A model generated the notes under the pieces. It worked only from the letters and a program-made list of their open reading frames with translations, did not search any database and was not told the DNA's origin. Shown piece after piece: positions 5,692 through 38,616 of a stretch of 39,872 nt of DNA. Every line of letters begins with the position of its first letter. The first letter of the stretch is position 1. The stretch spans positions 1 to 39,872 of the forward strand of contig CAIRSR010000022.1 of assembly GCA_903881315.1 (NCBI GenBank). The letters run 5' to 3'. Made by a program: the position numbers and the translations under genes. Origin of the DNA: an uncultured Thiotrichales bacterium. Its GTDB lineage: Bacteria; Pseudomonadota; Gammaproteobacteria; CAIRSR01.

Positions 5692-8600
5692 ATGTCTACC
5701 ACAGATGTTATCACCAACCTTGGTACCAATTCGGTTGCGTCGCTTTCTACCAGCGCTGTCGCCAAGATAACCGTTGCGGATCTCGCGAGTTTCTCCGTTG
5801 CCGATCTGACCATCCCCCAGATACCCAATCTCTCCACAGCGGTGGTAGCCGCACTAACCGCCGACCATCTTGTAACGCTATCTCAGGATCAGGTGGCGGC
5901 ATTCAAGTCTTCGCAAATAGCGGCGCTGACCACGGCAGCGCTTGTTGCAATCCCTCCCGCAGATTTTCAGATACTCACGACCGCCGTTACAGCAGCGCTA
6001 ACCACAAACCAGGTGGCAGCGCTCACCATAGACCAGATAGCACAATTTACCTCGTACCAGATAGGGGCGCTGAAATCCGCGCAGGTAGCGGCACTTTCCA
6101 CCGATGATGTGGTCGTGATTAGCCCAAGCTACCTCAGCACTGCCGCCATAGCTGCATTGAGTACCAGCCAATTGGTTGTGCTCACCACCGATCAGGTGGC
6201 TGCATTCAGCACAACCCAGGTTGTTGTCCTGAAAACAACCCAGGTGAGTGCGCTCACCACCGACCAAAGTAGCGCACTCACAGGAGACCAGATCCATGCG
6301 CTGAAGACCTCGCAGGTGGTTGTACTCAGCACGGCAGCGGTTGCGGCGCTAGGGGTTGTGAATGTCTCTCTGCTCACGACAACCCAAATAGCTGCCTTCA
6401 CGACCAATCAACTGAACGCCTTCACGACCGATCAGATGGCGGCGTTGACGAGTGGGCAGGTTAGCGCCCTAAAAACCAACCAGATCGCCGCTTTAACCAC
6501 CGACCAGGTCATGGTACTCACGAGCGATCAGGCCTTGGCACTCAAGACCTCGCAGGTTGCCGTCCTCACCACCGCAGATATTGTGGCGCTTGGCGCGACA
6601 AACCTCGCGGTGCTGAGTAGTGCCGCAGTAGCAGCACTCAGCACCTCTCAGGTAAAGGCGCTGACCCTCGATCAGATTGCAGCGCTGACGACTAGCCAGG
6701 TTGGTGCCCTAAAAACCAGCCAGATCGCTGCTTTAACCACCGATCAGGTCATGGTGCTCACGAGCGATCAGGCCTTGGCGATCAAGACCTCGCAGGTTGC
6801 CGTCTTCACCACCGCAGATATTGTGGCGCTTGGCGCGACAAACCTCGCGGTGCTGAGTAGTGCCGCAGTAGCAGCACTCAGCTCCTCTCAGGTAAAGGCG
6901 CTGACCCTCGATCAGATGGCGGCGCTGACGAGTGCCCAGGTTGGTGCCCTAAAAACCAACCAGATTAGGGTGCTCACGTCCGATCAGGTCATGGCGCTTA
7001 GTGCCGATCAGATTGGGGAGCTCAATTCTTCGCAGGCCTCAGCTTTTAGCACAACGGCAATGGCGGGCTTTGGGGTGGGCACGATTCTCTCTTTCACCAC
7101 AACCGCGATAGCAGCACTCACCACCTATCAATTCGCAGCACTTACCCCCGATCAGGTCGTGGGCCTTACCTCCGCACAGATCGGGGCGCTGAAGTCCTCA
7201 CAGGTGGCGGGATTAACCACCGCAGCAATCAGTGCATTTGCGCCAGAAGCACTCTCGGCATTTAGCACAGCAGCGATAACCGCTCTGAATACCCTTGAGA
7301 TAGCTGCATTGACCCCCTCTCAGGTGGCTGCATTCACTACGATGCAGGTTAGTGTGTTGCGCACAAACCAGGTGCGGGTACTGACCTCGGATCAGGTCGC
7401 CTCCCTCACCCCCGAGCAGATTGGCGCACTCCGCACCGCACAGGTAGCCGCCATCAGCACCAGCGCAATCACTGGGATTCTGGCAGACAGTATCCCTTCA
7501 TTCACCACAGCGGCTATCGCAGCGCTCACCACCGCAGCGCTTTGGGTTTTCTCGCCGGATCAGATCACCGCCTTTACCTCGGCCCAGATTGGCGCGATTC
7601 GCTCTGCGCAGGTAGCGGGTTTAAGCACAGCGGTAGTTATGGTGATTGCGCCGGAGGAGATCTCCGCTCTGAGTAGTGCCGCCATCGCCGCCCTTGCTAC
7701 CACCCAGATCAGCGTGTTGACACCCGATCAGATCACCGCGTTGACCACGACCCAGGTCGTCGCGCTGAAGACAACCCAGGTGCGCGCACTCACCGTTGAC
7801 CAGGTGGCAGCACTCACCTCCGCACAGATCGGCACGCTCAAGACCTCGCAGGTCTTTGCGCTCAGCACTGACGCAATCGCTGGAATTGGCATGACAGGCA
7901 TCGCCGCATTGAGTACTGCGGCGATTGCTGCTCTCAGCACCTCCCAGGTTGGCGCACTGACCGCCGATCAAGTGGCCGCCTTCACGTCCGTACAGGTTGG
8001 TGCGATCAGGTCTTCACAGATAACCGCGCTGACCACAGCGGACGTAGAGGCGCTCGGCACAACCAATCTCTCGGTGCTCAGCACCGCAACGATCGCCGCC
8101 TTTACCACCCTCCAGATCGGGGCGTTTAGCACCGATCAGATCGCAGTCTTTAGCACCCGACAGATTGGTGCCCTGAAGGCAACCCAGATAGGGGCGTTGA
8201 ATCCCTCCCAGGTGGCCGCATTCTCGAGCGTGCAGGTGGGGGCACTCAAGTCTTCGCAGGTATTGGCCTTCACGACGGCGGATATTGTGGTGCTCTCGAC
8301 CGACGTAATCCCTGCCTTGACCACCAGCGCAATAGCGGCGCTTACCACCGCAGCGGTAGCTGCGTTCACGAGCGGCGATGTCTCACAGATCGGGGCGTTC
8401 AGCACCGCACAAGTGGTGGCCATGACCTCGATCCAGATCGGGGCGCTCACCGTAGACCAGATTGGCGCATTGAGCACTGCGGCAACGAGTGCCCTGAGGA
8501 GCACCCAGGTAAGGGCGCTCAATACCGATCAGGTAGCGGCATTGACCTGGGATCAGATCGGGGCGCTGAAGGTTTCGCAAGCGGCGGCGTTTACCCCAGC

Positions 8601-23334: not shown

Positions 23335-24021
23335 CTACGCTAACTCCCAATCGCGGCACACCAATTCGCCACACGCTGGCCCATCATAGGCGAGGCTGCC
23401 GAAGTACCCCTCGGAAAGGGCAATGTCCCAGAACCGATAGCGTCCCACATCGCTTGGGCAGTACTCCGATTCGAGTAGCGCCGGAGGGGCTTGGCAGGTG
23501 ACGCTAAACTGGTTGAGCGGCAGGGATAGGCCAAGCCCCTTGGCCTTGATGTAGGCCTCCTTGCGGGTCCAGGTGCTGAAAAAGGCCGAGACAAAGGCCT
23601 GCTCGTCGAGCCCACGGAGGGCTTGGTATTCGGCTGCGCTAAAAAAGCGCCGCACCAGATCGAGCCGCTCCACAACGGGCGAGGGTCGCACCGCCTCGAC
23701 ATCAACGCCGATGTCTCCAGTCTCGGCCACCGCGAGGAGTGCCAAGTCTTTGGCGTGGCTTAGGTTAAAGACGGGTGACGCGGTGCCTTCCAACGCAGGC
23801 TTGCCCCAGGCATTGTGGGTAAAGCGTAAAGCGCTGATGGGTTGTTGCGCCGCTTCGGCGAGCAACAACCGCGTTGCGCCATGGGCAATCACGAAGCGTT
23901 GCCGGAGTTCGTGGCTCCGAAAACGATCCGCCCGCGCTTTTTCTGTGCTGTCTAGCAGGGGCAGCAGGCGCGTCGTCCAGGTTTCGTTAGTGAGCGCAAT
24001 GCGCCAGACTGTCAATGTCAT
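23335..24021 (-). CDS. 4'-phosphopantetheinyl transferase, Sfp type
   Basis: This 228-residue enzyme moves the phosphopantetheine arm of CoA to a serine of carrier proteins. Family motifs are complete: WGKPAL (72-77), FNLSHA (85-90), GVDVEAV with D107 and E109, and WTRKEAYIKAKGLGL with K154 and E155. The ATG at 24021 is chosen because the family starts near there (MTLTVWRIAL) and GAGG lies about 10 nt upstream; the 38-codon longer frame is Pro/Lys-rich and unlikely. It is divergent from the NRPS gene by 240 nt and very probably activates the NRPS carrier domains (S1096 and S2507). Confidence 0.92.
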   Translation of the reverse strand: MTLTVWRIALTNETWTTRLLPLLDSTEKARADRFRSHELRQRFVIAHGATRLLLAEAAQQPISALRFTHNAWGKPALEGTASPVFNLSHAKDLALLAVAETGDIGVDVEAVRPSPVVERLDLVRRFFSAAEYQALRGLDEQAFVSAFFSTWTRKEAYIKAKGLGLSLPLNQFSVTCQAPPALLESEYCPSDVGRYRFWDIALSEGYFGSLAYDGPACGELVCRDWELA

Positions 24022-24261
24022 CTTGTCGCGACCTCTGCAAGCCAACAGAACGCTCTGAAGTTTATTGGGTAAAGAATGACCCGCTTCTGGTTTAGAATTG
24101 GCGGGTGGCGGTTTCTTGATCATACCCTTAATCACGCATCATTCATGTGGTTTGTGGGGGCGAGAGCCATGGGTATGGTGAGAGCCGCGATCGCCTGATT
24201 ATGGTGATTCTATTATCACTTGAGTAGTGTGTTGGAGCAGAAGGTAACGAGGGTATTGTAA
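24022..24261. promoter_or_regulatory. Divergent region between the PPTase and NRPS genes
   Basis: 240 nt that must hold the promoters of both genes. TATTAT at 24211-24216 could be a -10 element for the NRPS, and it lies in a small dyad (GTGAT-TCTATT-ATCAC). GAGGG at 24249-24253 is the NRPS ribosome site, 8 nt before the ATG. Confidence 0.4.
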
Positions 24262-27200
24262 ATGACGATGCTTGACGAGGCTGTGCTGGATCTGGTGGCG
24301 GAACTGGAAGTGCTGGACATCAAACTGAGCCTAGAGGGTGAGGCGCTGCGCTACAGCGCCCCCAAGGGTGGCATTGACTCGGCGTTACTGGCGCGGATGA
24401 AGACCCACAAGCAGGGTATCCTGACCCTGCTGCGCGAGCGCGCTCGGGCGGCACAGTGGTTGGCCGCGCCGATTTCGCCACAACCTGCTGGCACACTGCT
24501 GCCGCTCACCTTTGCCCAGCAGCGCTTTTGGTTCCTCGATCAGATGGCCGGTGGGAACTCGCCGATATACAACATGCTGCCGATTGTCATGCGGGTTGAC
24601 GGGGCGTTGGATGGAACCCTCTTGCCGGGGGTGATGGATACGCTTGTCCAGCGCCATCAGGTGCTGTCAAACCGTTTTGCTATCGATGGCGATGCCCCCT
24701 ATCAATGGCCCGGGCAAAAGGGCTCGGTGTCGATCAGTCACTATGATTTTCGTGTGCTAGCCAAGCACGAGGCGGAGCTTGCCATCACGACGACAATCCG
24801 TGAGGAGGGGGAGCGCACCTTCGACCTCACGCGGGGTGGGCCGTTGCTGCGACTCGGTGTGATCCGGACTGCCGAGCAGAGCCACATCCTGGTGCTGACC
24901 ATGCACCATATTGTCGGGGATGGCTGGTCGATGGGGATCCTGGTCGCGGAGTTTTCCGAGTTGTATCGGGCGGCGCAACGCGGAGTATCGCTCACGCTGT
25001 CGCCGCTGCCGATCCAGTACGGTGATTTCGCCGCCTGGGAGCGCAAACGGCTCCAGGGCGTCTTTCTCCAGCAACAGATCCACTTTTGGCGTCGCGAACT
25101 CGCGGGTGCGCCAACCCTCCTGGAACTCCCGACCGATCGCCCCCGGCCCCGCCTCCAGAGTTACAACGGCACGACCTATTCGTTCCTGCTCGATCAGGCG
25201 CTGACGTTACGGGTACGCCAGGCCTGCAGCCGTTTCGGTGTGACGCCGTTCATGTTGTTGCTGGCGGCGTTTGGGACGCTGCTCAGTCGCTACAGCGGCC
25301 AAGACGACATCATCATTGGCACGCCCATGTCGGTTCGTCCGCATCCCCAGTGCGAGGGGTTGATTGGCCTCTTCTTAAACACCCTGCCGCTGCGCGTTGA
25401 CCTCACCGGCAACCCGAGTTTCTCTGATGCGCTGCAGCGGACACGACAACACGCGCTGGCGGCCTATCAACATGGCGAGGTGCCGTTCGAGGATCTGCTC
25501 CAGGCGTTGCGCATCGATCGTGCGCTGAACCATACCCCATTGTTCCAGGTGTTGTTCGCCCTCCAGAACGCGCCGATCGAGCCCATCAATATCAGCGGGC
25601 TCACCATTACCCCGCTCGAGACGGAGAATACCAAAGCACCCTTTGATCTCGTGCTTTCTATGGAGGAGATAGCCGAAGGTATCAGCGGTCGTTTCCGCTA
25701 CAACAGCGATCTGTTTGACCGCGCCACCATCGTGCGTTTGGCCGACCACTTCTTGCGGCTGCTGGATGGGGCGCTGGCCGACACCAACCAGGCCATCGGT
25801 CTGTTACCCCTTCTTAGCAAAGCCGAACTCGACACTGACTATCTGCGGCGCGGTGGCGGCCAAAGCTTCCCGGTAACAGAGACCCTGGTAACCCTCTTCG
25901 AGCGACAGGCCGCCCAACACGCGACCGAGACCGCACTCGTCTGTGAGACCGTTGCTTGGCGCTATGAGGAATTGAATGCTCGGGCGAACCGCATTGCGCA
26001 ACGCCTGGTACGGCTCGGCGTACAGCCAGGTCATCGGGTTGGCTTGTGTATGCAGCGCTCGGCGGATCTCGTCGCAGCACTGCTTGCGATCCTCAAGACT
26101 GGCGCGGCCTATGTGCCGCTCGACCCGACCTATCCACCCGATCGTCTGACGTTTATGGTCGAAGACGCGGGGCTTGTTGTTGTCGTGACCGACCCTGCAT
26201 CCATTGGGGTGGTGCCACCCACGGTGAGCTGTTTGCTGGATGTGGGCGCAGCAGACCTAAGCGCAGAGCCGCACGATAATCTCGCGCTCGCGCTCGCTGT
26301 TGAGTCCACCGCCTATGTGATCTACACCTCGGGTTCTACTGGGCGGCCCAAGGGGGTTGGGGTCACTCACGCGAATGTGGTGCGTCTGTTCTACTCGACC
26401 GAGGCACTGTACGGTTTTGACGCAAGCGATGTGTGGACGTTATTCCACTCCTATGCCTTTGATTTCTCGGTATGGGAGTTGTGGGGGGCGCTCCTCTATG
26501 GTGGACGGCTCGTGGTGGTGCCCTACTGGGTGAGTCGCTCCCCAGACGCCTTCTTCGACCTGCTGCAACAACAACAGGTAACGGTGCTAAACCAAACGCC
26601 GTCGGCCTTCCGCCAGTTGATGGAGATCGATCGCCGTAAGGGGGTGCGCCTCACGGCGTTGCGCTGGGTGATCTTCGGCGGGGAGGCGCTAGAGACCAAG
26701 AGTCTCGAAGGCTGGTGTACCCGCTATGGGTTCGAACAGCCACAATTGATTAATATGTACGGCATCACTGAGACCACGGTGCATGTCACCTACCATCGGT
26801 TGCTGGCGGCTGACCTCGCGCGGGGCGGTAGCGTGATCGGTGCGCCCTTGCCTGATCTAACCCTCGACCTTCGCGATCGCTATGGTCAGCCGGTGCCGAT
26901 CGGGGTGGCGGGTGAGATCCTGGTTGGTGGCGCTGGTGTCGCCGAAGGGTATCTGAACCGGCCAGAACTGACGGCAGAGCGCTTTGTCGCTGCGAGTACG
27001 CTTGGTGTCAGTGGCGGGGGGGAGCCGGCGCGGGGACGCATCTACCGCAGTGGCGACTTGGCGCGGCGTTGTGCCGATGGGCAGCTTGAGTACCTGGGGC
27101 GCATCGATCTCCAGGTCAAGATTCGCGGGTTTCGCATCGAGCTTGGCGAGATCCAAAACCAGATGGCCGCCTTTCCTGGAGTGACCCATGCGCTTGTCAC

Positions 27201-30200
27201 CGTCCATGAAGGCAGTAGCGGCCCGGAACTCATTGGGTATGTGAGCTTTCAGGAAGGGGTGGAGAGTGACTCAGCGGTTCTTGCCTTGCGCGAGCAACTG
27301 CGGCAGCGCCTCCCCGATTACATGGTGCCCTCGGCGTTGCTGGCCCTCGAGCGGATGCCCTTGACGGCGAACGGCAAGATCGATCTCCGCGCCCTGCCGC
27401 CCCCCGATCGCGACCGGCGTACCCGAGAGACACGCTTCGTTGCGCCCACCACCCCGCTCGAGCAATTGCTTGCCGAGTTGTGGCAAGAGGTGCTTCAGGT
27501 CGAGAACATCGGTTGTCACGATAATTTCTTTGAACTCGGTGGTAATTCCATCAAAGGCGCAATCTTCGCCAACCGTATGCAGGAGCGCATCGGGAGTGTT
27601 TTCTATGTTGTGGCCTTGTTTGAAGCGCCAACGATCGCCGAACTCGTTGCCTACATGCGCATCCACTACCCAGAGGCGGTGCGGCAATATGAAGGGGAAG
27701 GGGCGCTTGCTATCACCCTGCAGCGCCGCTTAGATGAGCAGGACTTGGCAAACTTTAGTGCGGTGATTACGCCCCTTGCCCCGTGTCCACGCTGTACGAG
27801 TGGCCCAAAGAATCGGCGCGCCATCTTTGTGTTGGCACCACCCCGTTCGGGCACGACGCTGTTGCGGGTCTTGCTCGGTGGTCACCCGGAGTTGTTTGCG
27901 CCGCCGGAACTTGAGCTGATGCCGTTCAATACGCTCGGCGAGCGTGCTCGGATCTGTTCGGGACGCGATGCCTTCTGGCTGGAAGGGACGCTTCGGGGCG
28001 TGATGGAACTCTGCGGTGTGAGTGCCGACGAGGCCAAGGCCCTGATGGCGGTGCGGGAGTTGGCGGATGTTACCGTCAAGGATTTCTATGGGGAGCTGCA
28101 GGGGTGGCTTGGCGAGCGCATCCTGGTGGATAAATCGCCCTCCTATGTCCTCGATCGCGCCATCCTTGAGCGTATCGAGGAGACCTTTGATAGGCCGCTC
28201 TATATCCATCTGCACCGCCACCCCTATGGGATGATTAATTCCTTTGAGGAGGCAAAGCTTCACCAGATCTTCTTCCGCTACCCCCACCAGTTTACGAGCC
28301 AGCAATTGGCGGAGCTTATCTGGGTACACAGCCACCAGAACATCCTCGATTTTCTCGCGACCCTCCCCGCTGACCGCCATGCGACGGTGGGCTTTGAGGC
28401 CATCACCGCTGCGCCACGGCAAGAGATGGATCGCTTGTGTGCCTTTATTGGTCTCCCCTTTGATGAGTCGATGCTTGCCCTCTACGAGGCGAAGCAGAAG
28501 AAAAGGCGGATGACGGATGGTCTCCATGCCGAGTCGAAGATGCTCGGGGATGTGAAGTTCCACACCCACCAAGGGATCGATGCGAGCGTCAACGAGCGTT
28601 GGCGTGAGCGTTATCAAAACGACTTCCTGGGGGCGATGAGCTGGCGGATGGCGCAGCAACTCGGCTACCCACCAGCGTCTGTCGAAGCCAAGCCCGCTTC
28701 CGAGACGCCGTCTTTGTCGGCACGAGAGGTTGGCGCAGTGCCCGTTGTCTTGACGGCAATGACGAGAGAGACAAGAGGGCCGGGGGTGGTGCGCGAACTC
28801 TCTCTTGCCCAGCAGCGGCTGTGGTTCTTCGACCAGTTAGAGGGGGCGAGTAGTGCCTACAACATGCCGGTCGCATTGTGGCTTAACGGCGAGTTAAACC
28901 AGGCGGCACTGCTTGCGGCCATTACCGCAATCGGTGAGCGTCATGAGGTGCTGCGCAGCACCTTTTCCAATGTTGGGGGTGAGGCCCGCTGCCACCTGTT
29001 GGCCTTCTTACCACCACCACTGGTGATCGACCTGACCTTGCTTGAACCACGGCGACGCGAAACGGAGGCCGATCGTTGGTTGATCGAGGAGAGTGAGCGC
29101 CCCTTTGATCTCGCCCGTGGGCCACTGTTTCGAGCAACACTGGTTGTCGTTACACCAAGGCGCCATCTGCTCGTACTGAACATGCACCACATTGTTGCGG
29201 ATGGCTGGTCGCTCGGGATTGTGGCGCGTGAGTTGGCTGTGGGCTATCAGGCGCGGTGTTCCGGGAAATCGCCAGACCTACCCGACCTGGTGTTGCAATA
29301 CAGCGACTATGCGCGTTGGCAGCGGCAGTGGTTGGCGGGTGGCGAATTGGCGCGGCAGCTCGACTACTGGCGTCGGCAATTGGCCGAAACCCCGTCATTG
29401 CTAGACCTCCCAACCGACCGTCCCCGCCCCGCGTTGCAGAGCTATCGGGGTGCGACGCTGAACTTTACCCTCCCAGCGGCGCTCCACCGCAGTCTGCGCG
29501 ACTATGCGGATAGCCGGGGGGTTTCGCTCTACATGGTGTTGCTTGCGGCCTTCGGGGTGCTGCTGTATCGCTACTCGGGGCAAACCGTCGTTCCGATTGG
29601 CTCGCCGAGTGCAAACCGCTCTCGCCGTGAGATAGAGGGGATGATCGGCTTTTTCGTCAATACCCTGGTGATGAAGCTCACCATCTCTCCGGACGACTCG
29701 TTTGAAAAGCTCTTGCTCACGGTACGCAACGTGGCGTTGGATGCCTATTCTCATCAGGATGTGTCGTTCGAGCAATTGGTCGAGGTGCTGCAGCCGGAGC
29801 GTAATCTTAGCTATTCGCCCTTGTTCCAGGTCATGCTGACCATGCAGAGCGCTCCGTTGACCTTGCCGCTGTTGGATGGTCTGCAAGTGAGTGCGGCGCA
29901 ACATGAGAATCCGGTTGCTAAGTACGATCTGACCCTGACCTTTGGTGAGGGAGGGGATGACCTGGAGGGCAGCCTTGAGTACAACTCGGATCTGTTTGAC
30001 GAATGGCGGATGAGACAGCTTACGGCCCACCTCACCGAATTGTTGCGCGGTGTGGTAGCAGACCCCTCGCGACCGGTCGCAGCACTCACCTTGCTTGCCG
30101 AGGACGCCCGTCGCCAGTTGTTGGTTGACTGGAACCGTACCGAGCGATCTTGGCCGGGGGCTGCAACCTTGCACCGCCTGATCAGCGACCGAGCACGCGC

Positions 30201-32757
30201 TGTGCCTGACCGCATTGCCTTGTGTTGGGGGAGTGAGTCGCTTCGTTATGGGGAGCTAGAGCAGCGCTCTAACCAGCTTGCCCACTATCTGTTGGCGCAG
30301 GGTTTGGGGCGTGGCGATCGGGTTGCGGTGGCGTTGGAGCGAGGCGGCGACTTGGTGGTGGCGCTCTTGGCGACACTAAAGGCAGGTGGCTGCTATGTCC
30401 CCCTCGACCCGGGCTATCCGGCGGATCGTGTCGCCACTATCCTCCATGACGCGGGGAGCGGCTGGTTGCTTACCAGTAGTCGCCTACAACCCTTTTTGCC
30501 GAGTGCGCGTCACACCCTGCTGCTGGATGGCGCAGAGCAGCCCTGGCACAACGAGTCGGATGCGCTCCCAGAGGTTTGGGTGGACGGGGAGGCGTTGGCC
30601 TATGTGATCTTCACCTCGGGTTCGACCGGACGGCCCAAGGGGGTGATGTTGCCGCATCGGGCGGTCGTTAATTTTGTGCATAGCATGGTTGACGCGCCAG
30701 GCATAACGGCAAACGATACCGTGCTGGCGGTGACGACGATTGCCTTTGACATTGCTGTGTTGGAGCTGTGGGCACCGCTGGTGGTGGGGGCGCGGGTGGT
30801 TATCGGCAGCGAACTTGAGGTACGGGATGGGGGGCGGCTGCTTGAATTGTTAGAGAGTTGGCGGGTCACGCTGCTACAGGCCACCCCCGCTACCTGGCGG
30901 CTGTTGCTGGCCAGTGGTTGGACGGGGACAGAGCGGCTGAAGGCGCTCTGTGGTGGTGAGGCGCTGCCGCGTACGCTTGCGGACGAATTGCGTGGGCGTT
31001 GTGGTCAACTGTGGAATATGTATGGCCCGACCGAGACGGCGGTGTGGTCGACGGTGGCGCACCTAGGCGGGGCTCGCGCTGGGGCAGGGGTGATTGCCCC
31101 GATCGGGCGACCGATCGCGAATACCCGCATCTACCTCCTGGATGGCTATGGTGAGCCCGTGCCGCTCGGGGTGGCGGGTGAGCTCTATATCGGGGGCAGT
31201 GGGGTGGCACTCGGTTATTTGGGGCAGCCGGAACTCACTGCCGAGCGCTTCTTGCCGGATCCCTTTGTGGCCAACGGGCGGATGTATCGCAGCGGTGATT
31301 TGGCGCGTTATCTGGTGGACGGCAGCATTGAGTACCTAGGGCGGGCCGATTCGCAGGTGAAGCTTAGGGGTTTCCGTATCGAGCTTGGCGAGATCGAGCA
31401 TTGTCTACAGCAGCACCCGCAGGTAGGGCAGTGTGCGGTTGCGATCGATGGCAGCGATGAAGGGGCGCGTTTGGTGGCGTTCTGTGTCGTGGCTGGCGGG
31501 GGGTTAGACGGGGCGGGACTGCGGGCGCATCTTGCGCGTAGTCTGCCGGAGTATATGCTGCCGTCGTTGTTTGTGCCCCTCCAGGCGTTGCCGCTGACAC
31601 CAAATGGCAAGGTCGATCGCAAGGCGTTACGGGTGCCGGAGGAACTTCGCAGCACAACGACGCGCCGCCTGGTGGCCCCACGCGATCAAACCGAGCGGCG
31701 GCTCGTCACCATCTGGCAGGATCTGTTGCAGGTAGCGCCGATTGGGATAGAGGACAATTTCTTCGAGTTGGGTGGCCATTCACTGGTTGCGGTGCGCTTG
31801 ATGGCGCGGATTGCCGCCGAGTTCCAGCGCCATTTACCACTGGCGGCGTTGTTTCAGGGCACGACCGTGGCGGCGTTGGCGCACCTGTTACGCGCCGAGA
31901 AGGCGACGGGTGGCTGGGAGACGGTGGTGCCGCTCGCGCCTGACACCAGGCTTGCCCCTTTGTTCTGCGTTGCGGGTGCGGGTGGCAATGTGCTGTATCT
32001 ACAGCCGTTGACCGAGGCGTTGCGGGGTGGGGTGGCGCTGTACGGACTACAACCACCTGGACTGGATGGGGTCTCACCCGTGCTTGCTACGGTGGAGGCG
32101 TTGGCGGAACATTATCTGACCGCCATTCGTACGATCCAACCGCAGGGGCCGTATCGGTTTATTGGACATTCCTTTGGTGGGCTGGTGGTCTTTGAGATGG
32201 CGAGGCGTCTGGTCGTCGCGGGTGAGGCGGTCGAGCGGCTCGTCTTGCTAGACACGGCAGCGCCGCACTGGTTTGCGCCCACCGGTCGTGACTGGAGCAA
32301 TAGCGCCTGGCTTGCCCAGGTGGCGCGGATTGCGAGCCATCAGTATGGGGTGGCGCTCGACCTTGATGAGGAGCAGTTGGCCGCCGAGGGCAGCGAGGAG
32401 GCCGAACTCTGTTTGTTACAACGCCGTTTGATTGATTGTGGGGTGCTACCAGAAGAAGCGGAACTCTCACACCTGCGTGGCTTTATCGAGGTCTATAAGG
32501 CCAATCTGCGTGCGGACTATCAGCCCTTGCCAGAGCCGCAGCCAATCCCGACACTCCTGGTGCGCTCTGCTGATCTACAACCCGGCCAGCTTATGGACGT
32601 GCAGGCCCGCGCAGTGCGTGCCGAGGCCGACTTGGGGTGGGGGCGTTGGCTGAGTGGTGAGCTTGATATTGTCGAGGTGGCGGGCGATCACCTCACGATG
32701 TTGAATCCGCCACAGGTGGGGGAACTGGCCCTGGTCATCAAAGACCGCTTGGCCTAA
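24262..32757 (+). CDS. Two-module non-ribosomal peptide synthetase with an internal sulfotransferase domain
   Basis: A 2831-residue NRPS. Domains in order: TubC_N-like docking domain (1-60); condensation 1 (75-500, HHIVGDG at 215-221); adenylation 1 (530-1050, core motif TSGSTGRPKG from 689); carrier 1 (1065-1130, S1096 in GGNS); sulfotransferase (1185-1472, PAPS loop PPRSGTT at 1193-1199, 3'-phosphate residues R1319 and S1327); condensation 2 (1511-1945, HHIVADG at 1642-1648); adenylation 2 (1960-2460); carrier 2 (S2507); thioesterase (2565-2831, S2637 in GHSFGG, D2664, H2810). Hand alignment gives specificity codes DFWNIGMVHK for A1, the threonine code, and DILQLGMVWK for A2, close to known glycine codes. 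No epimerase, methyltransferase or ketosynthase is seen. The docking and first condensation domains imply an acyl or peptidyl donor from a partner not in this window. Product and export are unknown. Confidence 0.93.
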   Translation: MTMLDEAVLDLVAELEVLDIKLSLEGEALRYSAPKGGIDSALLARMKTHKQGILTLLRERARAAQWLAAPISPQPAGTLLPLTFAQQRFWFLDQMAGGNSPIYNMLPIVMRVDGALDGTLLPGVMDTLVQRHQVLSNRFAIDGDAPYQWPGQKGSVSISHYDFRVLAKHEAELAITTTIREEGERTFDLTRGGPLLRLGVIRTAEQSHILVLTMHHIVGDGWSMGILVAEFSELYRAAQRGVSLTLSPLPIQYGDFAAWERKRLQGVFLQQQIHFWRRELAGAPTLLELPTDRPRPRLQSYNGTTYSFLLDQALTLRVRQACSRFGVTPFMLLLAAFGTLLSRYSGQDDIIIGTPMSVRPHPQCEGLIGLFLNTLPLRVDLTGNPSFSDALQRTRQHALAAYQHGEVPFEDLLQALRIDRALNHTPLFQVLFALQNAPIEPINISGLTITPLETENTKAPFDLVLSMEEIAEGISGRFRYNSDLFDRATIVRLADHFLRLLDGALADTNQAIGLLPLLSKAELDTDYLRRGGGQSFPVTETLVTLFERQAAQHATETALVCETVAWRYEELNARANRIAQRLVRLGVQPGHRVGLCMQRSADLVAALLAILKTGAAYVPLDPTYPPDRLTFMVEDAGLVVVVTDPASIGVVPPTVSCLLDVGAADLSAEPHDNLALALAVESTAYVIYTSGSTGRPKGVGVTHANVVRLFYSTEALYGFDASDVWTLFHSYAFDFSVWELWGALLYGGRLVVVPYWVSRSPDAFFDLLQQQQVTVLNQTPSAFRQLMEIDRRKGVRLTALRWVIFGGEALETKSLEGWCTRYGFEQPQLINMYGITETTVHVTYHRLLAADLARGGSVIGAPLPDLTLDLRDRYGQPVPIGVAGEILVGGAGVAEGYLNRPELTAERFVAASTLGVSGGGEPARGRIYRSGDLARRCADGQLEYLGRIDLQVKIRGFRIELGEIQNQMAAFPGVTHALVTVHEGSSGPELIGYVSFQEGVESDSAVLALREQLRQRLPDYMVPSALLALERMPLTANGKIDLRALPPPDRDRRTRETRFVAPTTPLEQLLAELWQEVLQVENIGCHDNFFELGGNSIKGAIFANRMQERIGSVFYVVALFEAPTIAELVAYMRIHYPEAVRQYEGEGALAITLQRRLDEQDLANFSAVITPLAPCPRCTSGPKNRRAIFVLAPPRSGTTLLRVLLGGHPELFAPPELELMPFNTLGERARICSGRDAFWLEGTLRGVMELCGVSADEAKALMAVRELADVTVKDFYGELQGWLGERILVDKSPSYVLDRAILERIEETFDRPLYIHLHRHPYGMINSFEEAKLHQIFFRYPHQFTSQQLAELIWVHSHQNILDFLATLPADRHATVGFEAITAAPRQEMDRLCAFIGLPFDESMLALYEAKQKKRRMTDGLHAESKMLGDVKFHTHQGIDASVNERWRERYQNDFLGAMSWRMAQQLGYPPASVEAKPASETPSLSAREVGAVPVVLTAMTRETRGPGVVRELSLAQQRLWFFDQLEGASSAYNMPVALWLNGELNQAALLAAITAIGERHEVLRSTFSNVGGEARCHLLAFLPPPLVIDLTLLEPRRRETEADRWLIEESERPFDLARGPLFRATLVVVTPRRHLLVLNMHHIVADGWSLGIVARELAVGYQARCSGKSPDLPDLVLQYSDYARWQRQWLAGGELARQLDYWRRQLAETPSLLDLPTDRPRPALQSYRGATLNFTLPAALHRSLRDYADSRGVSLYMVLLAAFGVLLYRYSGQTVVPIGSPSANRSRREIEGMIGFFVNTLVMKLTISPDDSFEKLLLTVRNVALDAYSHQDVSFEQLVEVLQPERNLSYSPLFQVMLTMQSAPLTLPLLDGLQVSAAQHENPVAKYDLTLTFGEGGDDLEGSLEYNSDLFDEWRMRQLTAHLTELLRGVVADPSRPVAALTLLAEDARRQLLVDWNRTERSWPGAATLHRLISDRARAVPDRIALCWGSESLRYGELEQRSNQLAHYLLAQGLGRGDRVAVALERGGDLVVALLATLKAGGCYVPLDPGYPADRVATILHDAGSGWLLTSSRLQPFLPSARHTLLLDGAEQPWHNESDALPEVWVDGEALAYVIFTSGSTGRPKGVMLPHRAVVNFVHSMVDAPGITANDTVLAVTTIAFDIAVLELWAPLVVGARVVIGSELEVRDGGRLLELLESWRVTLLQATPATWRLLLASGWTGTERLKALCGGEALPRTLADELRGRCGQLWNMYGPTETAVWSTVAHLGGARAGAGVIAPIGRPIANTRIYLLDGYGEPVPLGVAGELYIGGSGVALGYLGQPELTAERFLPDPFVANGRMYRSGDLARYLVDGSIEYLGRADSQVKLRGFRIELGEIEHCLQQHPQVGQCAVAIDGSDEGARLVAFCVVAGGGLDGAGLRAHLARSLPEYMLPSLFVPLQALPLTPNGKVDRKALRVPEELRSTTTRRLVAPRDQTERRLVTIWQDLLQVAPIGIEDNFFELGGHSLVAVRLMARIAAEFQRHLPLAALFQGTTVAALAHLLRAEKATGGWETVVPLAPDTRLAPLFCVAGAGGNVLYLQPLTEALRGGVALYGLQPPGLDGVSPVLATVEALAEHYLTAIRTIQPQGPYRFIGHSFGGLVVFEMARRLVVAGEAVERLVLLDTAAPHWFAPTGRDWSNSAWLAQVARIASHQYGVALDLDEEQLAAEGSEEAELCLLQRRLIDCGVLPEEAELSHLRGFIEVYKANLRADYQPLPEPQPIPTLLVRSADLQPGQLMDVQARAVRAEADLGWGRWLSGELDIVEVAGDHLTMLNPPQVGELALVIKDRLA

Positions 32758-32841: not shown

Positions 32842-34533
32842 TTAATGTTGCTTGGGTATGTTGCTCGGTACCTTTGGTGTGGCGGTGTTAGGCAGCGTCG
32901 TCATGCTTTGCAGGGTGATCTGGTTCTCGCCTTCGGCAGGATTGATCAACGTGCCGGACTGATGACGTGCCTCAATCACGAGCTTGGCCAGTGACGCTTC
33001 GGCTGCGATGCGGTCGGCAGCCGAGTTGACCCAGTAGCGCTCGGTGTCGAATTGGCGGAAGGCGTTATCCAAGGTCTGGCGTTTGTCGGAGACGGCAGCC
33101 TCGACCGACTTTGCATAGGTCATCGCTGACTCGCGTGCTGACTTGGCTGTGGCCGCCGTGGAGGCGATCCGATCGGCGATTCCCTTCAGGTCAACATTCA
33201 GCTTGCGGACGCCGTTGTTTAGGTCGATCTGGGCCTTCATCTTGTTCAGGGTTGCCTGGGTGACACGGCCCCGTGCGGCGGTATTGCCACCCAGTTTCAT
33301 GTTGAACTGCAGGCCCACGGTATAGCCGAGATTTCCGCTGAGATTATCGACTGCGCCGGTGAATCCATCCACGCTGTTCTTACCAAAGGTCGCCATCTGT
33401 TGGTGGAGCGCCATCACCAGGTTCAGCTCTGGCTTCTGGTAGTCTTCCATCCCCTTCAGAAGTTCGTCGGCGGCCAGAACCTGGGTATTGAGCGCCTTGA
33501 TATCGAACCGCTTGCTCATGGCAAGATCGTTCCACGCCTTGACATCGATCCCGTCGATGTCAGAAATGGTTGGGATCTGGTCAGTGGCGTCGCCGATTGC
33601 GGTTGCCTTGGCGAGCGGGATACCGAGTGCGTTGGCAAGATTAGAGCGGCTGGCTTGGAGTGCGGTTTCTGCCGTCTTCAGATCCTTTTGCTTCTCTTGT
33701 AAGAAGGCGTCAAAACGACTTAGATAGGCAGCATTTTGGGCGCGGACACCAGTAGGGTTCGGCTGGTGGTCAATGACCTCGTTAATCCGTTGCGTCCACT
33801 TCGAGATACGCTCAAACGATGCCTTACGCAATTCGTAATTGGCCACCGCAGCGCGGTTGTCCCAATACGCATAGACCGCGCTGGCGAGGATGCTGGAAAG
33901 GGCATAGTTCAGGTGGTCGATGGCGGCGGCGTGTAGCAGTTCCTTCGATTTGTAGTCGCCAATTCCTTGGGCGAGATCACCGCGCCCCCACAGAGGGAAC
34001 CTGGTAATGAACTTTAGCACCCCGTAGGTATACGGGAAATAATTGCTGAAGGTGACGTGCATTCCGCCATTATTGAGCGCCTGGAGGAGGGGGGCGGCGG
34101 CCAGCTTGTCGTGATCGGAATCCTTTTGCGTCTCCGTCAACGTCAGTTCGGTGTAGATTCCGCTGAGAAAGATCTTGGTTAAGGAGACCGTGAGGTCGTC
34201 CTGGCGGTAGTTGTCTGGCAAGAACGAGGTAACGGGGCTGCCGCCGGTGAGTGAGGCAAGCGCCACCCTTTCGATCTCTGCTGGATAATCGAAGCCGCCC
34301 AACTGGTTGGCCATGATCGAGGCGGAGAGCTTCGGGTCGAAGAACTGGTAGGCAATATCCTTGTCGGCACCCTTCAACTTGACGTTGATGCCTTCGGTCA
34401 TGATCTGGGGTGAATTCTTAAGGGCTAGGCCGGTAGCCTCCTGGAGGGTCAGGGCGTGGAGGTCTACGCTAAACAGTGCCGACACGGCGAGTGCCAAAGC
34501 GAGGGGCTTCATTGTAAAGCTGGGAGCGTTCAT
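32842..34533 (-). CDS. TolC-family outer-membrane efflux-type protein
   Basis: A 563-residue exported protein with a signal peptide (LALALAVSALFSVDLHA) followed by LTLQEATGLALKNSPQI, the opening of the outer-membrane efflux protein fold. Two long helical regions (about 235-330 and 420-540) with coiled-coil character flank beta segments, as expected for a trimeric TolC-type channel-tunnel. It is somewhat longer than a typical TolC. No adaptor or inner-membrane pump gene is adjacent, so its partner system is unknown. It is convergent with the NRPS gene, so a role in exporting its product is possible but unsupported. A second in-frame ATG at 34512 could be the true start; neither start has a good ribosome site. 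Confidence 0.8.
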   Translation of the reverse strand: MNAPSFTMKPLALALAVSALFSVDLHALTLQEATGLALKNSPQIMTEGINVKLKGADKDIAYQFFDPKLSASIMANQLGGFDYPAEIERVALASLTGGSPVTSFLPDNYRQDDLTVSLTKIFLSGIYTELTLTETQKDSDHDKLAAAPLLQALNNGGMHVTFSNYFPYTYGVLKFITRFPLWGRGDLAQGIGDYKSKELLHAAAIDHLNYALSSILASAVYAYWDNRAAVANYELRKASFERISKWTQRINEVIDHQPNPTGVRAQNAAYLSRFDAFLQEKQKDLKTAETALQASRSNLANALGIPLAKATAIGDATDQIPTISDIDGIDVKAWNDLAMSKRFDIKALNTQVLAADELLKGMEDYQKPELNLVMALHQQMATFGKNSVDGFTGAVDNLSGNLGYTVGLQFNMKLGGNTAARGRVTQATLNKMKAQIDLNNGVRKLNVDLKGIADRIASTAATAKSARESAMTYAKSVEAAVSDKRQTLDNAFRQFDTERYWVNSAADRIAAEASLAKLVIEARHQSGTLINPAEGENQITLQSMTTLPNTATPKVPSNIPKQH

Positions 34534-34667: not shown

Positions 34668-36941
34668 TTAGCCGCAGTTGGCCTGTTTCCCACGGCGGCG
34701 CAGCATTGGGTATCCCATGGCGATGAGCACCAGGAGTGGCAGGGTTGGGTCAAAGCCATTCCTGCCGTTGCTGATGCTACAACCGCCGCCACCACCTGCG
34801 ATGCTCCCGGGGTTGCCGATGCTCCCAGCGTTCGGTAGGTTAGCCTGCTGATAACCGAGGTTGAGATTGTTCGCCTTGTTCTTGACAATCTTCTGCTCGT
34901 TTTGGCTGGTTACTACCGTTTGCATATCCGCCTTTGTGTTAGCGAGCACCGTTGACCCGGCAGCGAGTCCGGTGTTGCTTGGTGCGGTAGCTAATTGGGT
35001 GCCATCAAACCCGCCAGGCGTACCCGTGAGGGTGCCGTCCAGCCAGTGCATCGCGTTCAGGATGAACTGTTGGTTATTGTTGGCGATGGGGTTGTTGAAG
35101 CCCATGCGGGTCTGGCCATCGGCAGCCATCTGTGCGGTCCACATGCCAGCCTCGCCCCAGAGCATAAATCTCCCTGCGCCTACGGTGGCAGTAGCACCTT
35201 GGAGGGTGTACTGGGTGTATGGCGTAATCGCATTACCCTGCGCATTCTTGCTGACAAGAACAGGCCCGGTCTTTATCGATGGTGCGGTATAGGCGGGGGT
35301 CAGTTGATTCGTCAGCACGTAGGTAATCAGGTTCGTCATGGAATCATCACTGTTGATCCCGACATAGGCGTCATCGGCTGGGGTGATGACGTTATAGGTG
35401 CCATAACCAAGTCGCAGAACGTCATTTTCTGCGATGAGGCCGACCAGGCTTGTATCCGCAGTTGCTGGCGTGAAGGTGAAGCTCGTGCCAGTGAAGGAAG
35501 TAACGTAGGGGAGTGCGCCGACCGGGTTCGGGTTTACGTCTGTCGCAAAGCCGCGCACGATGGGGTGATCCACCAACCAGCCGTCGCCGTCAGCGAAGCC
35601 CGCGAAATTGGCGGCACTAGCAGACGACGAGCCGCCCACTGGTTGGGCACCCTGAACCGGTGCTAGGTTTGCGGTTGCTGGCTGACCCGCCCAAAATACC
35701 ATGGTGTTGATCTCAGCGCCCAATTGCACCGATAGCACACTGATGTACTGCTTGAGGTCATCCTTTACGGTGCGTTGTTTTGAGCCGCAATAGGTTACCC
35801 CACCCACGGTAAACTCCGTAGTAGGATCAGGTACATAGTTGCTGTGGTAGATGCTGGCGGGGGCCGGGGTCAGGGTCGTCATCTGCTGGCCCATGATGTT
35901 CTCGGCGGACGGATAGACATTCACGCCAGGCATTGGGTTGGGCAGGATGTCGTGGAGGATGTCGTGGAGAAAGACATCGTTATAGGCCGGGTCAAAACCG
36001 TACCCGTCAGCAATCGAGAAACCAAATGCCTGTGCGAGATCCGAAGCGGCACCCGGAAACGGATAATGATCGGCAACCAGCAGTAATGAACCACCCCCCT
36101 GAACCCAGGCGACCAGGCTCGCAATCTCATTGGCGGTGAATCCGCTGGAGATTGGTGAAACCCACGACTGAGAGGTCTTGGTTTTCGCAAACCCGGTTGG
36201 GTTTGTTGCGTTGGGATAGGGCTGTGCTGCGTCGCAATCTTGATTTTGCTGATTATTGGCGGTTCCCAGGGGATTAACGATAATCAACACGTCGTTAGCA
36301 ATAGCGACCTTGGCGTCAACGGTGCTCGCTTGGCCGGCGATGCGCAGCTTATTCAGATTGGCAGCGGTAAACGTGGCAGTGGGCGCACTGGCATTAAAGC
36401 CCGGGACAAGGGAGCTAAAATCTTTAACGTCATAACTGTCCGCAACCCCCACGAGTGTTGCAAAGGGCAGGAAGCGGCCCGTCCGCACATGGAAATTGTT
36501 GTGGGTATCATCAATATAGATGGTCTTGTGGACGGTATGTGCGGCATCGGCAAATTCTGAATACTGCGCACCAGAGACGAATAGCCCACCACTGCCATCG
36601 GTGGCGACCCTTATGCCAGTAATGTTTCCGTTGCCGTCATTCGTTGTGCCGAACTGAAGGAAACACTGGTCGTTAATCTGATTGTTGGCGCACTGGATCG
36701 CGACATTCTTTGTGCAGCTATTGTAGGCATCAACCAAGCTTTGTTTTGTTGCATAACTGGCAGCGACGGTTGTACCGTTCAGGGTTGTTGGTTGACTAGT
36801 CCCCCAAGGATTCGCCCCGCCAACATTCCAGCAGGCCTCAATGCTGTTTGGTTGTGGATCCGCCATTGTTGTCAACGGCACTGTCATGGACAGCAGAAGC
36901 CATAGCAACCGAGTGTTGCGATGGGTTAGTGAAAATTTCAT
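34668..36941 (-). CDS. Large secreted protein of unknown function with a Cys-containing C-terminal sorting-like tail
   Basis: A 757-residue protein with a signal peptide (LLWLLLSMTVPLTTMA). Residues of about 210-300 (VLIIVNPLG, then IASLVAWVQGGGSLLLVADH) resemble the glutamine-amidotransferase-like DUF4350 fold, without an obvious catalytic Cys. The remainder is rich in Asn, Thr and Gly, with an ordered-looking YGTYNVITPADDAYVG region. The C-terminus (716-757) has a Gly run plus Cys (GGGGGCSISN), then DPTLPLLVLIAMGYPML and a basic RRRGK end. This has the tripartite shape of CTERM sorting signals such as MYXO-, JDVT- or GlyGly-CTERM, which are processed by a dedicated membrane protease; none is in the window. 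GGAG lies 7 nt before the ATG. Function unknown. Confidence 0.78.
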   Translation of the reverse strand: MKFSLTHRNTRLLWLLLSMTVPLTTMADPQPNSIEACWNVGGANPWGTSQPTTLNGTTVAASYATKQSLVDAYNSCTKNVAIQCANNQINDQCFLQFGTTNDGNGNITGIRVATDGSGGLFVSGAQYSEFADAAHTVHKTIYIDDTHNNFHVRTGRFLPFATLVGVADSYDVKDFSSLVPGFNASAPTATFTAANLNKLRIAGQASTVDAKVAIANDVLIIVNPLGTANNQQNQDCDAAQPYPNATNPTGFAKTKTSQSWVSPISSGFTANEIASLVAWVQGGGSLLLVADHYPFPGAASDLAQAFGFSIADGYGFDPAYNDVFLHDILHDILPNPMPGVNVYPSAENIMGQQMTTLTPAPASIYHSNYVPDPTTEFTVGGVTYCGSKQRTVKDDLKQYISVLSVQLGAEINTMVFWAGQPATANLAPVQGAQPVGGSSSASAANFAGFADGDGWLVDHPIVRGFATDVNPNPVGALPYVTSFTGTSFTFTPATADTSLVGLIAENDVLRLGYGTYNVITPADDAYVGINSDDSMTNLITYVLTNQLTPAYTAPSIKTGPVLVSKNAQGNAITPYTQYTLQGATATVGAGRFMLWGEAGMWTAQMAADGQTRMGFNNPIANNNQQFILNAMHWLDGTLTGTPGGFDGTQLATAPSNTGLAAGSTVLANTKADMQTVVTSQNEQKIVKNKANNLNLGYQQANLPNAGSIGNPGSIAGGGGGCSISNGRNGFDPTLPLLVLIAMGYPMLRRRGKQANCG

Positions 36942-37171
36942 AGGGAAGCTCCAAGCTCAAGGCAAGTGCGGTGGTGTTTTCGATTTGGTCAGGGGTAATA
37001 ACCTACGGGAATTCTCGGGAAATCAGTCCTCAAGAGCTACCGCAGGATGATAAGATTAGGTTGAATACGCTACCACAGGAAATATCCTCTGTTAGGGAGG
37101 ATGGCGGGGGGCGTCTATCCCTCGGGGGTTATAGGAATGCGTAGATACCGACACTCATATGGGTGGAATCC
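36942..37171. other. 230-nt spacer upstream of the secreted-protein gene
   Basis: Non-coding. It should hold the promoter of the leftward 757-residue protein gene and the 3' end of the first DUF697-like transcript. A 6-bp hairpin (ATCCTC/GAGGAT, 37084-37102) is visible. No clear terminator was found. Confidence 0.35.
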
Positions 37172-37744
37172 CTAGGTGCCTGCGTGTGCGGCAACCAATT
37201 GGGGCACGACCAGCTTGCCGCGCTGATACTCCGAGTGGTAGAGTTTTTTCGTAGACTTTTTGTCCAGACTGAGGAGTGTGCCGCCAGATTCGAAATGGTG
37301 CTGGAAGACCTTGCCAACCGCAAAGACCGCAACGCCGTTTGCCATGGAATATACCGTCGCGGAGGCGAGATAACCAATCAGTGGTATTGTGGTGAGCGCC
37401 GATCGAGAATGACTGACAACATAAATTGAACCAATGCTACCAACCACGGACAAAAACATCTTGATGAGCGCCAGCCGATTCGGAAACGGAAAGCCGTAGA
37501 TCTTGGCGAGTTCGCCAATCATTACGATCTCGATGGTGGCGACACCGGCGGCATCAACCAGTGGCATCGGCAGCAGTCCGCACCCAACCGCGATGAGGAT
37601 ATTGCGATTGATAAGCTGCTCTGCTTTTTTGCGGCGCAGCGCTTGTTCGGCATAGATCTCGTTTTGGGTAATAATGTTGTCGAGTTCTTGGGTTGCGAGA
37701 GCGTTGCTATGTTGATCACCACTACTCAGGGTCTGGGTGTTCAT
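37172..37744 (-). CDS. DUF697-like membrane protein (paralog 1)
   Basis: A 190-residue protein related to the DUF697 family, which is often linked to membrane-associated GTPases. It has a hydrophilic N-terminus with a likely helix (EIYAEQALRRKKAEQLINRN), a hydrophobic Gly/Pro hairpin (ILIAVGCGLLPMPLVDAAGVA), a second membrane-prone region (110-145) and a C-terminal motif GKVFQHHFESGGTLLSLD. GAGGAA lies 9 nt before the ATG. The same C-terminal motif and order occur in the next gene upstream, showing gene duplication. No GTPase is adjacent. Function unknown. Confidence 0.75.
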   Translation of the reverse strand: MNTQTLSSGDQHSNALATQELDNIITQNEIYAEQALRRKKAEQLINRNILIAVGCGLLPMPLVDAAGVATIEIVMIGELAKIYGFPFPNRLALIKMFLSVVGSIGSIYVVSHSRSALTTIPLIGYLASATVYSMANGVAVFAVGKVFQHHFESGGTLLSLDKKSTKKLYHSEYQRGKLVVPQLVAAHAGT

Positions 37745-38030
37745 GTCAGAGATTCCTCAGTGGTTCATGCCGACAGGCATATACGGGTGTTCGTGCGCTG
37801 AAGGTATGCGTTGCTAAGCCTTGTTGCCTACCAGGGGTGTTCTGGTGGAGAGGTTAATTTTGTTCGGTTTGTGTTCGCCAAGACAGAGATGGCCTTTGAC
37901 AAGGCGTCTTTCTCTCTCGGTATGGATTGTCCCGTCCTGCAAGAAATATCCCACGCACAGCAGAGACAAGAAAAAGCCACCAGAGAGAACCTGCAAAGTA
38001 TACTGTCCTTACTGGGTTCCTCACGGCAAA
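37745..38030. other. Spacer between the two DUF697-like genes
   Basis: About 286 nt with no supported gene. With the terminator on its right it makes the two paralogs separate transcription units, so the promoter of the first gene should be here. No clear promoter elements were identified. Confidence 0.4.
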
Positions 38031-38069
38031 ACAAAAAAGGGGTTCCGTTTATCGAAACGGAACCCCTTT
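38031..38069 (-). terminator. Intrinsic terminator of the second DUF697-like gene
   Basis: AAAGGGGTTCCGTTT (38036-38050) and AAACGGAACCCCTTT (38055-38069) form a perfect 15-bp stem with a 4-nt loop. The A-rich tract to its left gives a U-run on the minus-strand transcript. It lies about 20 nt beyond the stop of the 38092-38616 gene. Confidence 0.93.
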
Positions 38070-38091
38070 AGGGTATCACAACAAAGCGCCT

Positions 38092-38616
38092 TTAGGCGTT
38101 AGCGGTAGCCGCTGCTGGAGCAGCCTTCGCGTCGCCGCCGACAACCTTCTTGCCCTCTTCGAGGGCGGAGGCAAAATAGGCGCGTACCTTCTCGGGGTCA
38201 AAGCTGAGGAAGGTGCCGCCGGACTCAAAGTGTTGAGTAAACACCTTGCCAATTGCGTAGGTCGAAGCGCCGCCGAGTGTCCCCATGCTGATAGCGCCCG
38301 CCACTTGTCCGACCAGTGGGATCATCTTGACGAGGCTTGCGGTCATCGGGGTCATTGAGACCGGAACAACGCCACCGACGAGGCCGGTGATCGCTTCTTT
38401 GCCAAGGTTCTTGGAGAAAGGAACCCCATAGACGTTGCTAAGGCTGTGCAGCATCTTGAGCTGTACCGAGGTCAGTGCCAGCAGGTCAAGCATCGGGATA
38501 GGGATGAGCCCCGGCGCGACCGAGCCGATGCTGTAATTACGAACCACCTTGTTTGCTGCCGCGAGCTTTTGCTCGGGAGTCATTGCCACAGCGGCCTCTA
38601 CTTGTTCAGTTGCCAT
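38092..38616 (-). CDS. DUF697-like membrane protein (paralog 2)
   Basis: A 174-residue protein of the same type as the gene at 37172-37744. It shares a Pro/Gly hydrophobic hairpin (SIGSVAPGLIPIPMLDLLAL), a YGVPFSKN segment matching YGFPFPNR of its paralog, a second hydrophobic region (95-130) and GKVFTQHFESGGTFLSFD near the end. The C-terminus is Ala-rich (AKAAPAAATANA), unlike the paralog. AAGGAGAG lies about 3 nt before the ATG. It has its own terminator. Function unknown; a homo- or hetero-oligomeric membrane role is a guess. Confidence 0.8.
   Translation of the reverse strand: MATEQVEAAVAMTPEQKLAAANKVVRNYSIGSVAPGLIPIPMLDLLALTSVQLKMLHSLSNVYGVPFSKNLGKEAITGLVGGVVPVSMTPMTASLVKMIPLVGQVAGAISMGTLGGASTYAIGKVFTQHFESGGTFLSFDPEKVRAYFASALEEGKKVVGGDAKAAPAAATANA

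Follow-up and report, generated by a model that had tools for sequence, protein, structure and literature searches.

The window, i.e., the whole 39,872-nucleotide stretch analyzed, contains a nonribosomal peptide synthetase (NRPS) gene whose open frame encodes an uninterrupted protein of 2831 aa (Table 1). According to Pfam, its domain order is TubC_N-C-A(Thr)-PCP-ST-C-A(Gly)-PCP-TE, in which ST is a sulfotransferase. PCP1, ST, and C2 lie within one open frame; thus, the ST is fused in the NRPS. Because a TubC_N docking domain stands at the start of the protein, an upstream partner protein is predicted. The specificity codes of the adenylation domains were read via alignment on GrsA positions. 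The A2 code, DILQLGMVWK, was taken to mean Gly. A1 carries the code of a Thr-activating domain, DFWNIGMVHK; for cyanopeptolins, Table 1 of PMC2533009 pairs an identical code (OciA-A2) with Thr.

Table 1. Features of the NRPS gene and its neighbors, in window coordinates
Feature	Position	Strand	Evidence or remark
4'-Phosphopantetheinyl transferase, divergent from NRPS	23335..24135	-	Pfam; relative inside Balneolaceae cluster
NRPS, TubC_N-C1-A1-PCP1-ST-C2-A2-PCP2-TE	24262..32757	+	ORF and Pfam
TubC_N docking domain, aa 10-59	24289..24438	+	Pfam PF18563, 2.2e-13
Condensation domain 1 (C1), MHHIVGDG intact	24472..25821	+	Pfam, motif
Adenylation domain 1 (A1), code DFWNIGMVHK, Thr	25882..27411	+	Alignment on GrsA positions; code-Thr pairing, PMC2533009
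Peptidyl carrier 1 (PCP1), LGGNSIKG	27442..27711	+	Pfam
Sulfotransferase domain (ST), aa 1185-1475, CurM/OLS family	27814..28686	+	Pfam, homology, tree, model
PAPS loop PPRSGTT, aa 1193-1199	27838..27858	+	Alignment
E1216 (APPELEL), candidate catalytic base	27907..27909	+	Alignment
R1319-H1320-P ... S1327, 3'-phosphate-binding pair	28216..28242	+	R, H, and S invariant, 25/25
H1436 of KFHTH, candidate active-site residue	28567..28569	+	Alignment and model
Condensation domain 2 (C2), MHHIVADG	28786..30126	+	Pfam, motif
Adenylation domain 2 (A2), code DILQLGMVWK, taken as Gly	30157..31641	+	Alignment on GrsA positions
Peptidyl carrier 2 (PCP2)	31672..31911	+	Pfam
Thioesterase (TE), GHSFGG	31942..32754	+	Pfam PF00975, 1.4e-29
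Outer membrane efflux-type protein, convergent with NRPS	32842..34533	-	Pfam OEP, 2.9e-7
ABC_transp_aux-like protein, JDVT-CTERM sorting signal at end	34668..36941	-	Relatives beside clusters L027, L028, and G057
DUF697 protein	37172..37744	-	Relative beside L028 cluster
DUF697 protein	38092..38616	-	Relatives beside clusters L027 and L028 and on own contig C113

Elsewhere in the window, positions 5692-10206 encode a 1504-aa protein with 39 ALTTAQ repeats (Pfam PF20080), and positions 2885-5512 encode a papain-like protease that also has lectin-like and fn3 domains; in the sister genome G399, a relative with 56% identity to this protease is encoded near the NRPS. Neither the Rfam nor the tRNA scan gave any match in the window.

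The Sulfotransfer_3 family matched aa 1188-1402, between the PP-binding and second Condensation domains, with an E-value of 4.9e-26 and a score of 92.8 bits against a cutoff of 27. In a profile search of the whole genome, the match covered window positions 27823-28467 (8.3e-28) and was the single one above the cutoff in the 3.36-Mb assembly. By homology, the ST extends over about aa 1185-1475; a preliminary description of the locus had placed it at 27811-28674 (aa 1184-1471). That description had proposed a complete PAPS-site sulfotransferase between carrier 1 and condensation 2, directly after a Thr-loading carrier, and the Pfam score and order, the intact frame, and the A1 code bear this out.

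Among solved structures, the nearest by sequence (phmmer against the PDB) were the CurM ST (4gbm, 1.3e-56 over ~298 aa) and the ST of the Synechococcus olefin synthase (OLS; 4gox, 3.3e-56 over ~264 aa); tyrosylprotein sulfotransferases (TPSTs) ranked after these and far weaker. An AlphaFold model of PCP1-ST, built on an 18-row alignment that left out one row from a plasmid record, had a mean pLDDT of 84 and a pTM of 0.78. Foldseek aligned it with 4gbm and 4gox at TM scores of 0.91 and 0.93, respectively, normalized by target. Kinship with CurM, cited at the outset as an analogy, was thus recovered in both sequence and predicted fold. The lowest-confidence part within the modeled ST, aa ~1423-1431 near H1436, is probably a mobile flap.

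When 25 STs were aligned, R1195, E1241, K1291, R1319, H1320, S1327, and E1379 were invariant, and T1198 was replaced by S alone. The PPRSGTT loop and the pair R1319 and S1327, spaced eight residues apart, had both been pointed out earlier, and the PAPS-site residues were retained throughout this alignment. E1216 was kept in 24 of the 25 STs (S in the Cys-module ST of locus L031) and H1436 in 23 (Y in L031 and R in genome G791). In the TPST motif EETR, the second Glu is the counterpart of E1216, which is therefore a candidate catalytic base; judged from the alignment, E1216 and H1436 are both candidate catalytic residues. A chance match or a pseudogene was ruled out by the E-values, the intact frame, and the conservation. 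A stand-alone ST joined through an assembly error was also ruled out, because the same domain order was found in independent genomes.

Relatives were sought in 1,696 genomes and in one scan of genome contigs. The ST domain was rare yet widespread, occurring in 9 of 399 genomes of a phylum sample at 1e-15. At 1e-30, it was found in 7 of 369 genomes of a class sample, in 2 of 297 around Fulvivirga, in 1 of 301 around Ardenticatenaceae, and in 1 of 297 around Desulfamplus. The same C-A-PCP-ST-C-A-PCP-TE protein, 76% identical, is present in G399 (the MAG of L029). This order was also found in G401 (ORF cut at the contig start), a Balneolaceae genome (L028), Desulfamplus magnetovallimortis (L027), a Bacteroidetes MAG (L026; with a frame break close to the start), and G057, which comes from another class of the same phylum. 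The C-A-PCP-ST-C order, which the preliminary description had proposed looking for, therefore recurs in independent genomes of several phyla. In other lines, the ST likewise follows a carrier, namely, in Fulvivirga, Ardenticatenaceae, Aliikangiella (two in one protein), G450, G791, G540, G430, three 2-Mb genomes (stand-alone PCP-ST), and an Agrobacterium vitis plasmid (A-PCP-ST-TE). All NRPS-clade STs examined come behind a carrier.

In a tree of the 25 STs, comprising 19 carrier-linked NRPS rows and 6 polyketide rows (CurM, OLS, Calothrix, G590, and G407), the split between the two sets was supported at 100/99. Thus, the carrier-linked NRPS STs form a sister clade outside the polyketide clade. 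The window ST and its orthologues were grouped with a support of 99/97. The domain resembles a CurM/OLS-type PAPS sulfotransferase in whole-domain homology, predicted fold, PAPS loop, and R...S pair, but it falls outside the polyketide ST clade and is followed by a C domain instead of a hydrolyzing and decarboxylating TE. NRPSs may have taken up the ST as a cassette, placed after a carrier and before the condensation domain that follows.

Variants of this arrangement were also observed. The stand-alone PCP-ST proteins of the three 2-Mb genomes (L018:5817-8870, L019:8179-11266, and L020:6661-9748) are followed by a protein that combines carrier and thioesterase-like parts and by a PPTase, with no NRPS seen nearby; they are possibly a trans-acting version. 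In G450 (L075:978-16387) and G791 (L086:2860-14577), A-PCP-ST occurs with a PKS/aminotransferase/NRPS line, and a neighboring protein in G450 combines formyltransferase, adenylation, and luciferase-like monooxygenase domains.

Upstream of the ST, the A-domain code corresponds to Thr in the window, G399/L029, G401, L026, L027, L028, and Fulvivirga and to Ser in G057 and G450. In G057, the conserved cluster has thus exchanged Thr for Ser with the ST still present, and the β-hydroxyl is therefore kept. In the Aliikangiella NRPS, both STs come after an Asp-like A domain (DIPRVGHxGK), and the gene is immediately followed by two genes for TauD-family dioxygenases (1.3e-40 and 6.2e-41); these modules would fit β-hydroxy-Asp made by TauD-type dioxygenases. 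The product of this single NRPS with its two STs and two TauD-type genes (L032:3551-17995 and L084:11330-15820) possibly contains two sulfated β-hydroxy-Asp residues. The sole Cys-like code, DLYNMSLIWK, was found in Ardenticatenaceae (L031:2269-6852), where the Cys-reading module precedes an ST with S and Y at the E1216 and H1436 equivalents, which is perhaps inactive or altered in function. The codes of A. vitis (DAEVVGAVAK) and G791 (DVLLNSLVNK) match no decodable substrate.

Counted per independent lineage, Ser/Thr modules made up 4 of 8 modules before an ST versus 1 of 18 other modules at the same loci (Fisher p = 0.02), in a small hand count whose counting unit was our choice. This bias of the upstream A domains favors sulfation of Thr while it is carrier bound, and it is very probable that the window ST sulfates Thr at all, whatever follows. 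The earlier proposal that the ST acts on carrier-bound Thr is upheld to this extent; a free Thr is not required, because in relatives C1 receives a chain from an upstream polyketide synthase (PKS) and an aminotransferase-NRPS. Chain-Thr-S-PCP1 and free Thr-S-PCP1 are equally possible substrates.

In Balneolaceae, Desulfamplus, and G057, the ST-NRPS stands behind a PKS (KS-AT-KR-ACP) and an aminotransferase-C-A-PCP protein; in the Balneolaceae cluster PKS, no AT was detected. The A domain of the aminotransferase-NRPS has the code DATK[VI]GEVGK, probably Asn. In the host of the window, contig C92 carries a carrier-aminotransferase-C-A-PCP protein 53% identical to that of G057, and contig C113 carries a PKS 58% identical to that of G057 over 669 aa. 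Further on, C113 encodes a DUF697 protein, a cyclic-peptide-type ABC exporter, a TEII, an APS kinase, a Band7 protein, a periplasmic binding protein, and large PKS proteins including FAAL-ACP-KS-AT-DH, KS-AT-DH-KR-ACP, and KS-AT-DH-MT-KR-ACP. Of these, genes for DUF697, the exporter, TEII, and Band7 were also found next to the clusters of Balneolaceae and Desulfamplus.

By comparison with its relatives, the window NRPS appears to be the end of a conserved FAAL/PKS/aminotransferase-NRPS cluster. Because relatives carry these parts together, we infer that C22 (the contig of the window), C113, and C92 serve one pathway in the host. The predicted line would use a fatty acyl starter, followed by PKS extension, β-amination, Asn, a C2 unit with a hydroxyl, Thr (sulfated), Gly, and release. 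An accessory set of DUF697, ABC_transp_aux-like, Band7, and DUF481 proteins was observed in varying combinations beside ST-NRPS clusters of several phyla (window 34668-38616, C113:6066-6632, L027:16025-20399, L028:16066-20426, and G057 [C10] 44165-45205).

No second full-length APS kinase gene was found in the assembly besides that on C113 (6.7e-71), which lies near the partner PKS, TEII, and cyclic-peptide-type exporter. Judged from this gene, the host appears to have a PAPS supply. The A-PCP-ST-TE gene of A. vitis has cysD close by, together with a cysN that includes an APS-kinase part. In G399, G401, and G057, APS kinase is encoded away from the cluster, and in G400 it is present and this ST is absent. 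APS kinase was therefore rejected as a conserved gene of the cluster; its position beside the PKS is peculiar to the host of the window.

In the mechanism proposed here, A1 would load Thr on PCP1, and C1 would join it to the chain from the upstream PKS. PCP1 would offer Thr, free or acylated, to the ST, which would move sulfate from PAPS to the Thr β-hydroxyl. C2 would then hand the O-sulfothreonyl chain on to Gly, and the TE would free a product still bearing the sulfate. The domain with its intact PAPS site and predicted fold, the Thr and Gly codes, the clade, and the conserved cluster were observed here; we infer the ST activity, the form of the substrate, the order of the steps, and the retention of sulfate. 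Taken jointly, it is on balance probable that the domain is a CurM/OLS-family, PAPS-dependent O-sulfotransferase that sulfates carrier-bound Thr in cis and that the product keeps O-sulfothreonine.

Several observations favor retention. Oci, the cyanopeptolin synthetase of Planktothrix, contains an in-line ST, and its peptides carry HO3SO-CH2-CH(OMe)-CO-, with the β-O-sulfate kept (PMC2533009); retention is favored because this in-line NRPS ST of known product keeps its sulfate. It is also favored because sulfo-Thr persists in isolated peptides, which are stable enough for isolation (PMC13369874), and because neither a lyase domain (Pfam) nor room for one (domain layout) was found between PCP1 and C2. 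In addition, the post-ST C domains of Fulvivirga and Aliikangiella look ordinary, clustering with the ordinary C domains of their own genomes in a C-domain tree in which the long-branch row L077 is placed unreliably. A specialized dehydrating C domain after the ST was rejected, since post-ST C domains form no single clade in this tree. As a point against retention, an O-sulfothreonine at the thioester stage could eliminate without a dedicated domain.

By analogy with CurM, it had been suggested earlier that sulfation could trigger elimination. Thr on PCP1 would be sulfated, and α-proton abstraction would expel the sulfate, spontaneously, in the ST pocket, or in C2, to give dehydrobutyrine either before Gly is coupled or thereafter. 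The nearest characterized homologues, CurM and OLS, activate a β-hydroxyl for elimination, and common descent with them speaks for this route; Thr, Ser, and β-hydroxy-Asp would all yield dehydro residues. Foldseek placed retinol dehydratase, which we take to be a sulfotransferase that dehydrates with sulfate as the leaving group, among the structural neighbors of the ST model. However, sulfate loss in CurM/HlaB is coupled to TE hydrolysis and decarboxylation (PMC6274090), which is impossible in midchain. Because the PCP1 chain passes to a C domain and not to a TE, CurM elimination is not transferable here. The lack of a lyase domain or of room for one, the mixed type of the post-ST C domains (C2 reads MHHIVADG), and the sulfate retained by Oci also oppose it. 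Elimination at this module is thus unlikely, and this part of the preliminary description was not upheld. For the clade as a whole, the idea that sulfate serves as the leaving group when carrier-bound Ser, Thr, or β-hydroxy-Asp is converted into midchain dehydroamino acids or small rings is a tentative proposal that we consider doubtful; if true, this route to dehydro residues and rings would differ from the known C-domain routes.

The ST could also sulfate another hydroxyl of the PCP1-borne chain, such as a β-hydroxyl from the KR of the upstream PKS, instead of Thr. The KR in the upstream PKS of relatives, together with the host's own C113, makes a second hydroxyl in the chain probable. Nevertheless, this acceptor is improbable: the Fulvivirga ST stands behind a Thr module without such a PKS being seen, the A-PCP-ST of G450 (Ser code) has no C domain of its own, and a KR hydroxyl would be farther from the thioester than in CurM. 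Ring closure, in which an amide oxygen or the Gly nitrogen displaces the Thr sulfate to form a methyloxazoline or a 4-methyl β-lactam, is more improbable still. Activation of a β-hydroxyl beside an amide is the chemistry of such closures, and the ring-promoting sulfotransferase LGS1 is among the structural neighbors (Foldseek), but C2 lacks the extra His of the nocardicin β-lactam-forming C domain, whose motif is HHHxxxDG. Least probable of all is a catalytically dead or purely structural ST: site residues can disappear, as in the L031 copy, but the window copy and all close relatives have retained the PAPS loop, R1319/S1327, E1216, and H1436 over a large phylogenetic distance.

This use of an in-line ST had been said to appear undescribed, which is too strong because the Oci NRPS has a built-in ST (PMC2533009); an ST built into an NRPS is already known. 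No description combining an ST domain, an NRPS, and Thr/Dhb was found in the mostly nonsubscription literature, which is weak evidence of absence. As far as this literature goes, the carrier-linked clade, its link with midchain β-hydroxy residues, and the conserved cluster appear to be new. Here, a carrier-linked ST clade spans several phyla and is apparently tied to modules for β-hydroxy amino acids; one such ST is used by a conserved gene cluster of lipopeptide type. Should the sulfate be kept, genome mining would have a rule by which O-sulfated Thr/Ser residues in peptides can be predicted; should it be lost, a new in-line route to dehydroamino acids would result.

Compared with known systems, the window ST is closest to the STs of CurM (curacin A) and OLS, with ~35-37% identity over the whole domain and the same predicted fold, PAPS-site residues, and candidate catalytic residues. 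Like these and the ST-TE of HlaB (haliamide), it is fused in an assembly line with a presumed β-hydroxyl acceptor. Those STs stand before the terminal TE of polyketide lines, and their action results in decarboxylative elimination, whereas the window ST lies in the PCP-ST-C order in mid-NRPS after Thr. The Oci ST, as described, is likewise built into an NRPS, and its product is sulfated on the β-oxygen of a three-carbon acid (PMC2533009), but it works with a glyceric acid starter and not with a midchain amino acid. SulN of sulfazecin biosynthesis also carries out PAPS-dependent sulfation of an NRPS carrier-bound peptide; in contrast, it is a separate, trans-acting enzyme that N-sulfonates Dap (PMC11298585). 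The A-PCP-ST-TE protein of A. vitis plasmid pRvVAT039a (L047) belongs to the same ST clade (44% identity) and shares the PCP-ST order, with cysD/cysN(+APS kinase) nearby, but it is a single module in which the ST is followed by a TE, with the code DAEVVGAVAK. Located beside ectB (L047:12943-21701), it offers a compact, culturable system for this ST clade.
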